Shown here one piece after another: positions 39,585-45,500 of a DNA stretch of 64,000 nucleotides. Numbering within the stretch: the stretch's first letter is position 1; every line of letters starts with the position of its first letter. Source of the DNA: Zeus faber (lineage: Eukaryota > Chordata > Actinopteri > Zeiformes > Zeidae); assembly GCA_960531495.1 (NCBI GenBank), contig OY482849.1:36924790-36988789 (forward strand), written 5' to 3'. The notes beneath the pieces were generated by a model. The model was not told where the DNA came from. It made no database searches and saw nothing but the letters and a program-made list of their open reading frames with translations. Made by a program: the position numbers and the translations under genes.

Positions 39585-42500
39585 TCAGACCGGGTGGAAG
39601 AGCAGCGTGCGCTCGTCCAGGTAGACGGGTTGCCGTGGCAACGAGCCCTTGGGCAAGGCGGCGGCACGCAGGTAGAAGGACACCACCCGGCTGTCCAGGC
39701 GCTGCTGGCGGTGGACGCTGTCCCACGGCTTGGGGTCCAAATCCAAGATGGACGCCGACACGGAGAAGACAGGAAGTCTGGAGAGAGAGAGAGAGAGACG
39801 GGTAACGTGCCACCTCCGTCGGTCTCATGGTCGTTACCATGGCTACGGTCAGACCCGCTGGTCACGCTCGCATTAAAGGTGTATATAATGTTACATTATG
39901 GGATGTTCCGTTTCCAAGGTTTTCTACTTCATTCAAAACAATAAAAACTTTGTGTTTAAAGCACCTTCGTGAGACTGCGTGATACTTATGTGTCATTTTT
40001 ACGAGTATCTTCCTCACCGCTCGCCACCCTCCTCTTCCTCTCCGCGGGGCTGCAGCGTCAGCATGATGGAGCAGTCCTTTGCTGTCATGGCAACACGGTA
40101 CTGCTGCACCTAGCAACAGAAGATGGGGGTCAGTGAAAACACCACCATGTGAACTGAAGACAGTCCTGTTGTTCAGACCCAGGGGGCGGGGCCTAGAGGG
40201 TTAGGGGCGGTGTTCAAGTAGAAACAGGACGCGTACGTATCAGAGGTGGTAGTATAGTTGTACTACTAGTAGTAATACTAGTTGTAATACATTGATAGTA
40301 TTCAAAATGTTATCTTCTTCTTGGGCTGTATTCAAGGATCAAACAGCCACACAGGAAGTCATGAAACCACACAACACCGTCACGCTGCTCTGGTTACCTT
40401 GGCAACAGCGTACTCCAGAGAACCGTCGTCCTCGGATGGAAACTTCTGGAGCTTCTCCAGAAACGCTGCGTTGTACGGACCGTCCAGCTGGAGGCGCTCC
40501 CTAGCAACACAATAACAACCAATGTTACCATGGTTACTACTATGGTTACCCCCTGTGTGTTGATTAATGACATCCGTCAAGTTACGTTACTACGGTACTG
40601 TTGCTATGGATACCTCTCGGTGGGGAAGCGGTGCAGGTACTGCTCCACTCGACGGTACAGCGGGAAAATTCCCTCGATGTCTAACGTGTCGAACATCTGA
40701 GTCCGAAGGATCTGAGCCAGGACACAACGAGAGGGGAGACAGGCTGGACCTGACAGACAGACAGGTGGACACTCACTTAGTATTACACAGTAGTACGCAG
40801 TAGTATACAGTAGTACACAGTAGTACAGAGTACCTGCTCTGATCAGCTCCCTGCATAGCACACTGCCCTCACACACGCTCCTCCCTCCGCCTCCTCTTTC
40901 TACATCTTCACCTCCATCCTCCTCCATCAGAAGACTGTTCACCAGCACCTGCACACAGTCACACACACAGTGACAGTCTCACACACACGGTCACACACAC
41001 AGTGACACACACGGTAACACACAGAGTTACACACACACACACACACAGTGGGAGGCGTCACCTGGATGAAGTCGTTGAGAACAGCCTTGTTGCTAAGGCG
41101 ACTGTTGCTACACAGGAAGTAGCTCCTGAGGTTCTGCAGCAGAGAACCTGGATCCTGGAGGTCTGAGTCACCATGCTGCCCATACACACACTGCCCACCC
41201 TGCAGTACACAGCAGTACACAGCAGTACACAGTAGTACACGATCAGCTTATTCTTAAGATGCCTGACATACAGAACAGAGACAGACAAACAGACAGACTC
41301 ACCTTGAAGACTTTCAGGTTATTCTGTGGTTCTTCTATCAAGTGTTTGATGGCAAAGTACATCCTCTGTTTGTTCCTACACAACACACACACAGCTGCTC
41401 AGTGCAAACATCTGTACTGCTGGCTGGAACCTGTGGCTAGTACTGTCAGTACTTGTACTACCGCTACTAGTAGTAGTAGTAGTAGTAGTAGTACTACTAG
41501 GATGTGGTCTCACCCTGAGAAGAGGTCCAGTGGACAGTACAGACTACGCTTTCTCCACTTCCCATTGGCAACCTGAGAGAGAGACATGCTGTCAGTCTAC
41601 CTGTGTCGGCCATCTTGGATTTGGAACATCTTATATTTCTCCAATAAGGAAACTTCTACAAGAGGAACAGACGCTCCATTTAATTGTATTCAATAGAAGA
41701 GGAACAGACGCTCCATTTAATTGTATTCAATAGAAGAGGAACAGACGCTCCATTTAATTGTATTCAATAGAAGAGGAACAGACGCTCCATTTAATTGTAT
41801 TCAATAGAAGAGGAACAGACGCTCCATTTAATTGTATTCAATAGAAGAGGAACAGACGCTCCATTTAATTGTATTCAATAGAAGAGGAACAGACGCTCCA
41901 TTTAATTGTATTCAATAGAAGAGGAACAGACGCTCCATTTAATTGTATTCAATAGAAGAGGAACAGACGCTCCATTTAATTGTATTCAATAGAAGAGGAA
42001 CAGACACTCCATTTAATTGTATTCAATAGAAGAGGAACAGACGCTCCATTTAATTGTATTCAATAGAAGACGACCTAATGCTCCATTTTGAGCCAACACG
42101 CCCACAAACTGCAGGGAACCTGTGACGAGACCAGAGCTGCCTGATCGTACCATAATGGTACCTTCTAGTGCATGCAGTACTAATACCTTGTCGTGCAGTA
42201 CTACTTCCTGGTGTGCAGTACTACTTTCTGATTGTGCAGTACTACTTCCTGGTTGGGCAATACTAGTACCTGGTTCTGCAGTACTACTTCCTGGTTGGGC
42301 AATACTAGTACCTGGTTGTGCAGTACTACTTCCTGATTGGGCAAAACTAGTACCTGGTTGTGCAGTACTACTTCCTGGGCATGCAGTACTAGAACCTTGT
42401 AGTTCAGTACTACTTCCTGGGTGTGCAGTACTAGTACCTTGTCCGGTAGCACTACTTGCTTGGTGTGCAGTACTAGTATCTGGGTGTGCAGTACTAGTAC

Positions 42501-45500
42501 CTTGTAGTGCAGTACTCGTACCTGGGTGTGCAGTACTAGTACCTGGGTGTGCAGTACTAGTACCTGGGTGTGCAGTACTAGTACCTGGGTGTGCAGTAGT
42601 AGTAGTACCTGGGTGTGCAGTACTAGTGCCTTGTAGTGCAGTACTAGTACCTTGTAGTGCAGTACTAGTACCTGGGTGTGCAGTACTAGTACCTGGGTGT
42701 GCAGTACTCGTACCTGGGTGTGCAGTACTAGTACCTAGGTGTGCAGTAGTAGTACCTTGTAGTGCAGTAGTAGTACCTGGGTGTGCAGTACTCGTACCTG
42801 GGTGTGCAGTACTAGTACCTTGTAGTAGTACCTGGGTGTGCAGTACTCGTACCTTGTAGTGCTGGTGCATACAGAAGCGACAGACTTTGGTCTTGATGTC
42901 TTTGCTGATGTGTTTGGACGACGGCAGGAAGCCACACTTGGGCTGCAGAGCAACGACAGGAAGAGGATTCTGATCAACCATCAATGATCAATGATCAACC
43001 ATCAATGATCACTGATCATTGATGGTTGATGGTTGGTGGTTGGAGGGTGCTGATCAGAGAGGTATCAGGAAGTAGGAACACTGTTGGAGGGAGGGGCTGT
43101 GCAGGGTGACGTGGTGGAGGGACCAACATCATTTACTGAACCTCTGAATGGAACCAAAACAACAACAAATACCAACCACCACTCTGTGTGTTGATGTGTG
43201 TTGATGTGGGTTGATGTGTGTTGATGGGTGTGTGTTTGTGTGTGTGTGTGTGTGTGTGTGTTTATGTTGTGTGTGTTTGTGTGTGTGTTACCTTGATCTC
43301 AACACACAGTGGTGCAGTGTGTGTTGGGTACGATGGAGACGTCAGGTTTGGCAAACACAGGGCACAGCCGCTGTAGATATCCATTACTTTGTCACACCGC
43401 CACACTAACACACACACACACACAGTAGTTTGTTTAGTTCAGTTGACAGAACAGTTTTCTAGTTAATGACTCAACCAACTAAACTGTTTGAGTGTCTGTC
43501 TCCTCCAGGAGCAGCTGAAGGAGCAGGGAGACTCCACCGCCCCTCGTGCCACTGTTCATCATCCCTCCAAGGAACTCCAACCATGGGGATGGTGGCTCAG
43601 GAGGTAGAGCTGGTGGTCTAGTCATCTAAAGGTTGCTGGTTGGATCCCAGGCTCCTCCTGCTAGCATGCTGTAGTGTCCTTGAGCAAGACACTTAACCCC
43701 TCATTGCTCCTGATGGCTGCGTCCGTCGCTGTTTGAACAATTGTAAGTCGCTTTGGATAAAAGCCTCTGATCAATGACTAAATGTAATTGTAATGTAATG
43801 TAACCAGGAAGGGGGTGGGCACTGACTGCATGTGGGCCAGGGTGCCCAGACCCAGCCCGGTCTGATCCCAAGAGGAATTCAAACTACAGACCAGGGGTGG
43901 TGACATCCCACATCATGGAAGGACTGGTGCGAGCACATGAGCCCTGGTGGAGACAACCACTTTGTACAGAGATGCCTGGGTGGAGCGGGTGGAGCAGTAC
44001 TTCAGGCTCTGTTTCCCTTTATGATCTACACCTAATAAGAGGAGGACCGAAGACTGGTGGTCTGCTGTTCACAATCAGCAAAATCAAGGAGATGTTTCCC
44101 CTGTAGTGGTGACTCAGAACCACAAGAACCTGGAGGAACCTGAAGGAGCCTATAGGAACCTGGAGGAACCTGGAGGAGCCTATAGGAACCTGGAGGAACC
44201 TGGAGGAGCCTATAGGAACCTGGAGGAGCCTGGAGGAACCTATAGGAACCTGGAGGAGCCTATAGGAACCTGGAGGAGCCTATAGGAACCTGGAGGAACC
44301 TGGAGGAGCCTATAGGAACCTGGAGGAACCTGGAGGAGCCTATAGGAACCTGGAGGAACCTGGGGAAACTTGGAGGAGCCTGGAGGAGCCTATAGGGACC
44401 TGGAGGAGCCTGGAGGAGCCTATAGGGACCTGGAGGAGCCTGGAGGAGCCTATAGGGACCTGGAGGAGCCTGGAGGAGCCTATAGGGACCTGGAGGAGCC
44501 TGGAGGAGCCTAGAGGAGCAGGACTGGGAGGATCTCTGCAGGTAAACACTGTTCTACTGATGGTTCTGGGATGGAGAAGCCCCGCCTACCTGGCCTTTGA
44601 TGTTGAACCTTGATTGACAGCTGTCTCACAAACTCCAGCGGCAGTTTGACAACTTCCTGTGGCAAAGAGAAGTCAAATATAGTATTAGTATTGTACTATT
44701 ACGTTATACTATTATACTATTATATTGTATTATTAGACTATTAGACTATTATATTATTATACTATTATAGAGGAGTCGTGTCCTATATATTTTACTACGT
44801 AGGGAGTAGTGTGGTATATATTTTACTACGTAGGGAGTAATGTGGTATATATTTTACGGCATAGGGAATAGTGTGGTATATATTTTACTACATAGGGAGT
44901 AGTGTGGTATATATTTTACTACGTAGGGAGTAGTGTGGTATATATTTTACTACGTAGGGGGTAGTGTGGTATATATTTTACTACGTAGGGAGTAATGTGG
45001 TATATATTTTACTACGTAGGGAGTAGTGTGGTATATATTTTACTACGTAGGGAGTAGTGTGGTATATATTTCACTACGTAGGGAGTAGTGTGGTATATAT
45101 TTTACTACGTAGGGAGTAGTGTGGTATATATTTTACGGCGTAGGGAGTAGTTTACTACATATCTCACGATGTAGGGAGTAAGGTACGATATAATTTGCTA
45201 CATAGGGAATAGTGTACTATATATTTTACTATGTAGGGAGTAGTGCACTATATATTTTACTATGTAGGGAGTAGTGCACTATATATTTTACTATGTAGAG
45301 AGTAGTGCACTATATATTTTACTATGTAGGGAGTAGTGCACTATATATTTTACTATGTAGGGAGTAGTGCACTATATATTTTACTATGTAGGGAGTAGTG
45401 CACTATATATTTTACTATGTAGAGAGTAGTGCACTATATATTTTACTATGTAGAGAGTAGTGCACTATATATTTTATTACGTAGGCCGTAGTGTACTATA

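Follow-up and report, generated by a model that had tools for sequence, protein, structure and literature searches.

Introduction

Internal tandem repeats at exon-intron boundaries, with units of about 30 bp on average, can alter splicing, as De Grassi and Ciccarelli described in 2009 (PMC2812944). The subject of this report is an array in which the repeated unit itself carries a splice donor, a minisatellite in intron 6 of a fish-like ippk gene of Zeus faber. It lies in a 64,000-nucleotide stretch of contig OY482849.1 (assembly GCA_960531495.1, positions 36,924,790 to 36,988,789 of the forward strand; the contig is labelled C5 in a genome of 803 Mb and 153 contigs), which we call the window and within which positions are numbered from 1. 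A 2007 study by Zhuo et al. (PMC1783408) deals, by its title, with tandem arrays from which human introns with alternative splicing have arisen.

The ippk array is real and is of the known general kind of tandem repeats at exon-intron boundaries (PMC2812944). It shares with those repeats the minisatellite-sized units and the position at a boundary; the repeats of that paper, however, vary between recent human paralogues, with transcript support, whereas ippk is one gene as judged by PF06090 and its repeat unit includes a donor. A second comparison is with the intron gain model of Rogers, in which a segment containing AGGT is duplicated in tandem; the nearest parallel given in that paper is a 24-bp exonic AGGT segment repeated in fission yeast genes (PMC4974935). 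In both cases a duplicated AGGT block multiplies potential splice sites, but the ippk array lengthens an existing intron, with no new intron or exon shown. Studies of competing 5' splice sites have found that U1 can occupy both of two alternative sites while only one is used (PMC5861446), and in ippk too several U1-matching sites lie by one exon and only one of them need be used, although here the array is natural, has about 22 sites, and is known for U1 binding by calculation only. Intron 3 of an abalone TSSK1-like gene holds a minisatellite of 27-bp units whose number varies between individuals (PMC6905558). It is likewise intronic with units of about 20-30 bp, but no exon-edge homology is mentioned for it in the text consulted.

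Our preferred reading of the ippk locus, to which we give a probability of roughly 0.57, is that a duplication straddling the exon 6/intron 6 junction grew into the minisatellite, that splicing stays at the real donor, and that the look-alike donors (decoys), if used, would mostly shift the frame.

The array begins at the exon 6 donor

The gene lies on the minus strand, with exons located by probe from about 57.4 kb down to 39.7 kb of the window. Among the best candidates scored, PF06090 (Ins_P5_2-kin) has four matches above cut-off in the genome, all four within ippk and one of them on exon 6, and the protein of exons 6, 7 and 8 aligns with 5mw8_A (IPPK; E 7.9e-32), which establishes the homology. 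Joined, these exons read without a stop as PKCGF...MHQHYK-VANGKW...LFSGNKQRMYF, with consistent phases for exons 6 and 7. The features at the junction are as follows, a slash marking the exon-intron boundary here and below.

42942..42853, minus strand: ippk exon 6 (PKCGFLPSSKHISKDIKTKVCRFCMHQHYK), 90 nt, ending in GCACTACAAG in phase 0; placed by the 5mw8_A alignment, PF06090 and reading of the acceptor and donor.
42843..42862, minus strand: authentic exon 6/intron 6 junction, GCACTACAAG/GTACGAGTAC, the last 10 exon and first 10 intron bases.
42852..~42162, minus strand: minisatellite of donor-bearing units of about 21 nt, beginning at the first intron base; from Tandem Repeats Finder (TRF) and reading.
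42831..42819, minus strand: unit 2 of the array (GTACTACTACAAG), only 13 nt; its start is the sole near in-frame decoy (+7 residues), and its length throws the following units out of frame.

The original prediction placed an array with a main unit of 21 bases at the ippk exon 6 donor, and this holds: TRF reports period 21 at 42173-42820, with 30.8 copies and 81% matches, and the first unit starts at 42852, the first base of intron 6. With about 30 head-to-tail copies and units within 10-100 bp, the array is a minisatellite. It abuts the donor, whose edge reads in short form CACTACAAG/GTACGAG, and the last 10 exon bases recur within it; a second TRF row (42794-42860, period 34) covers 42854-42860, 7 nt inside exon 6, so that the repeat reaches across the exon-intron boundary.

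The units have two main tails. GCACACCCAG occurs in 13 exact copies, and GCACTACAAG occurs in four exact intronic copies, in register with the units (three running on into GTAC and one into GCAC) as well as at the end of exon 6 itself. The near part of the array is uniform, and the far part is diverged, with GTACTAGTATTGCCCAACCAG-like and GAAGTAGTACTGCACAACCAG-like units alternating and with diverged exon-like tails (GAACTACAAG and GCACGACAAG). The first intron unit today reads GTACGAGTACT-GCAC-ACCCAG against GCAC-TACAAG in the exon, which puts the two GCAC motifs (exon -10..-7 and intron +12..+15) exactly 21 bp apart. When the genome was searched with the main unit at up to two mismatches, all 15 places found lay inside the ippk array, and a reversed control gave one; both exact genome matches of the 20-mer that joins exon tail and donor also fall there. 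At the sensitivity of this DNA search, which skips very common words, the unit is unique to the locus.

Homology to the exon edge and the origin of the array

Whether the exon edge matches the array by more than chance was judged at 19 ippk edges (10 donors and 9 acceptors; the positions of three edges are off by about one base, and the exon 12 acceptor was not found) by counting the terminal exon bases that recur exactly within 800 nt. Ten terminal bases recur at the exon 6 donor, and do so four times; 17 of the 19 edges show only 3-6. The 21-mer at the junction has up to 20/21 identities in the array against at most 15/21 at any other place on either strand of the window. A random 7-mer followed by AAG equalled any unit tail in 77 of 200000 draws, so that, given AAG, an exact tail match by chance has a probability of about 4 in 10000.

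Several observations weigh against the junction as the source. An unrelated 21-bp array of AGGTACTAGTAATAAAAGTAG on contig C7 (L055, C7:916743-916920) has a AGGTACTAGT core and includes a AGGTACGAGT variant, and it lies before a possible acceptor, away from any recognised donor; the intron half of the ippk unit thus belongs to a style of repeat found in this genome and need not derive from a donor. The exon 13 acceptor edge has a 9-nt recurrence, which shows that similar match lengths can arise otherwise, and an earlier control of 22 edges, several of them with ends off, contained an unanchored 10-nt match at the start of exon 12. Moreover, the majority tail is not that of the exon, since the 13 units ending in GCACACCCAG are three bases away from it. 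In view of the exon 13 match we count match length alone as modest evidence, weaker than the comparisons of the junction 21-mer and of random tails, and hold the seeding of the array by the junction slightly less firmly. Because the C7 array also has the GTACTAGT half, the argument for a junction origin comes from the exon half, GCACTACAAG. A derivation of the units from the splice donor by copying is therefore plausible only: the array begins at the donor, donor-like sites repeat and the last 10 exon bases are common to both, but the majority tail differs and 21-bp AGGTACTAGT arrays occur away from recognised donors.

These observations lend themselves to an alternative that we regard as possible though clearly less probable, namely that the array was born inside intron 6 out of the AGGTACTAGT/GTACTAGTAC style of repeat and spread to the donor via the common AG/GTAC, the exon edge being matched by chance or rewritten by conversion. 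Besides the C7 array and the exon 13 edge, it can point to two more occurrences of GTACTAGTAC, at window positions 21921 and 21927, and to a Tyr codon within the bases common to the exon 6 tail and the array, where 5mw8_A (mouse) and 2xal_A (plant) have Leu. (Other fishes may have Tyr at this position too, which would speak against a rewriting of the exon by the array.) The low probability of a chance tail match speaks against this origin, as does the agreement of the other two of the three common codons, His and Lys, with 5mw8_A, as would be expected if selection, and not the array, had shaped the end of this exon.

Under the preferred junction origin, we infer that seeding ran from the exon edge into the intron. 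The array would have started when a 21-bp block across the exon 6/intron 6 boundary (10 exon and 11 intron bases) was duplicated in tandem, probably through slippage at the two GCAC microhomologies, and a single slippage event of this sort could yield both tail types. Later growth into the intron may have come by slippage or unequal exchange. Every intact unit bears an AG/GTAC donor-like site.

Reading frames and the predicted effect of decoy use

The decoys considered here are the 22 sites with AG/GTA among the first 700 bases of intron 6. Read-through from exon 6 is open across the entire array and yields GTSTAHP repeats, somewhat beyond the earlier claim that there is no stop for most of it; the first stop lies farther on.

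42015..42013, minus strand: first stop on read-through of intron 6, within a neighbouring 37-bp array.
41572..41514, minus strand: ippk exon 7 (VANGKWRKRSLYCPLDLFSG), where frame-shifted transcripts would terminate.

This open frame is unremarkable, since random permutations of the unit, when repeated, leave a given frame open 75% of the time (20000 permutations). The GTSTAHP frame exists solely through the frameshift of the 13-nt unit. The original prediction was right about the array, the junction, the 10-base tail match and the open read-through, but its units are not all in frame: because unit 2 is 13 nt long, the units from the third until near the far end are in phase 1. As a result 20 of the 22 decoys would add a length equal to 1 mod 3, put exon 7 out of frame and bring in a stop 33 nt ahead of the exon 7/8 junction. 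The frame into exon 7 is kept by only two decoys (phase 0), 42831 (+21 nt, +7 residues, VRVLHTQ) and 42186 (+666 nt, +222 residues), so that by this measure the array does not fit an in-frame coding repeat or alternative 5' splice array. The idea of decoys adding residues in multiples of seven thus fails on the frames, and with it isoforms of +7n residues are rejected; as an interpretation, the earlier view keeps its donor-anchored array with an exon tail and is largely wrong about the protein. Nearly all the look-alike donors, if used, would break the ippk protein. A stop is usually expected to trigger decay when it lies at least 50 nt ahead of a junction, and 33 nt falls short of that distance; there are further exons beyond the exon 7/8 junction, so decay of the frame-shifted transcripts would still be expected.

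Donor strength and RNA folding

On a matrix of donor-site base frequencies, the authentic AAG/GTACGAGT site scores 7.5 and four other ippk donors score 6.8-12.3. Three CAG/GTACGAGT decoys reach 7.7, and the remaining 19 of the 22 stay at or below 3.95. The three sites that equal the authentic one by this measure all shift the frame.

42800..42790, minus strand: decoy donor CAG/GTACGAGT at intron offset 55; matches the authentic score; frameshift.
42716..42706, minus strand: decoy donor CAG/GTACGAGT at intron offset 139; matches the authentic score; frameshift.
42524..42514, minus strand: decoy donor CAG/GTACGAGT at intron offset 331; matches the authentic score; frameshift.

Calculated U1 duplex energies place 21 of the 22 decoys level with the authentic site or above it. 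This departs from the matrix because GTACTAG retains the CAGGTA pairing but has no G at +5, and the energies count against a donor that holds its place easily, as leakage could exceed what we assume. Most copies have T at +5 and the real site has G, a difference that could reflect drift or selection; since G/T variation at +5 is also present in the C7 array, we give it no weight. Silencing of the decoys through pairing of the GTACTAGTAC palindrome was also considered. The mean unpaired probability is 0.41-0.44 at the four GTACGAG sites, among them the authentic one, and 0.15-0.44 at the remaining 19 decoys, but local accessibility shows no clear order.

The number and calculated strength of these sites might suggest that the array works as a splice switch, giving in-frame heptapeptide isoforms or an adjustable level of non-productive ippk splicing, and one near decoy (42831) does add exactly seven residues. 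We consider such a switch unlikely: the great majority of decoys lead to a frameshift and a stop within exon 7, the open frame is what shuffled units would give, and the RNA of the array does not fold unusually (z -1.17, equalled by 3 of 20 shuffles). Less likely still is that array and exon edge exchange sequence, so that the last codons of exon 6 (Tyr included) are rewritten or kept fixed, while the 13-nt unit makes almost every decoy a frameshift trap and the number of units sets the amount of productive ippk mRNA.

On the preferred reading, splicing would most likely still occur at 42853, held there by exon definition, an outcome that we infer; the decoys may bind U1 weakly or transiently, and their use would mostly give frame-shifted transcripts that are degraded. 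The array itself is probably tolerated repeat DNA, presumably without a function of its own.

The locus is a clear natural example in which a splice donor sits inside a long array of its own near-copies and may have given rise to them. It could serve as a system to test how the spliceosome holds to one donor when about twenty others resemble it, and whether output changes with the number of copies. It also carries a lesson: little can be read from an open frame over a repeat when shuffled units leave a given frame open three times in four.

Donor-like repeats elsewhere in the genome

A genome search for tandem AGGTACNAGT pairs yielded 28 places, and its reversed control 8; of the 28, 9 lie in the ippk array and 8 in the C7 array. 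Among six loci with such pairs that were read by eye, none was recognised as a donor. A search for tandem CAGGTRAGT gave 69 hits (26+43) against 44 (26+18) in the reversed control, and 16 loci with such pairs were inspected by eye. In nine of these 16 (L012, L014, L015, L019, L022, L023, L025, L026 and L027) the pairs are 13 nt apart and appear by eye to belong to one dispersed repeat family.

None of seven other multi-copy donor-like arrays (eight loci, four of them read further) was confirmed as a donor array at an exon edge, L038 and L044 being left as candidates. Together with 22 further loci the count of confirmed cases is zero under strict patterns read mostly by eye, which do not amount to a survey, and we therefore make no claim either way about recurrence at exon edges. 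A scan of viral contigs with the ippk unit gave no matches, and no title on a minisatellite built of splice-donor copies was found in the open-access literature with the few terms tried.

Two of the loci deserve a brief description. L037 (C22:8674491-8675256) is a 17-bp array of CAGGTGAGT-type units and is the only multi-copy array that was checked against a protein family; its neighbour is a GoLoco exon (PF02188, E 9.9e-10) on the opposite strand, and the array apparently sits just upstream of the acceptor of that exon. L024 (C10:10322069-10322094, minus strand) is a 17-nt duplication in two exact copies, CTGTCGCAG/GTGAGTCA, that follows an open frame of 492 nt. It is perhaps an incipient junction duplication; coding of the frame was not confirmed, as its last 120 residues gave no Pfam family and there were no PDB matches.

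Other repeats in the window

TRF arrays cover about 39% of the window (1-64000; 165 overlapping rows), which places repeats close to many ippk exon edges. One of them shares intron 6 with the donor-bearing array.

42088..41660, minus strand: second array of intron 6, unrelated; 37-bp unit, 11.6 copies, 98% match.

This 37-bp array is probably younger than the donor array, as it is more homogeneous. A very long 16-bp array of TGTAACAGTCTAATAG-like units, with about 330 copies, occupies 32190-37387, and a 31-bp array of 41 copies at 44772-46049 ends 116 nt ahead of the ippk exon 4 acceptor.

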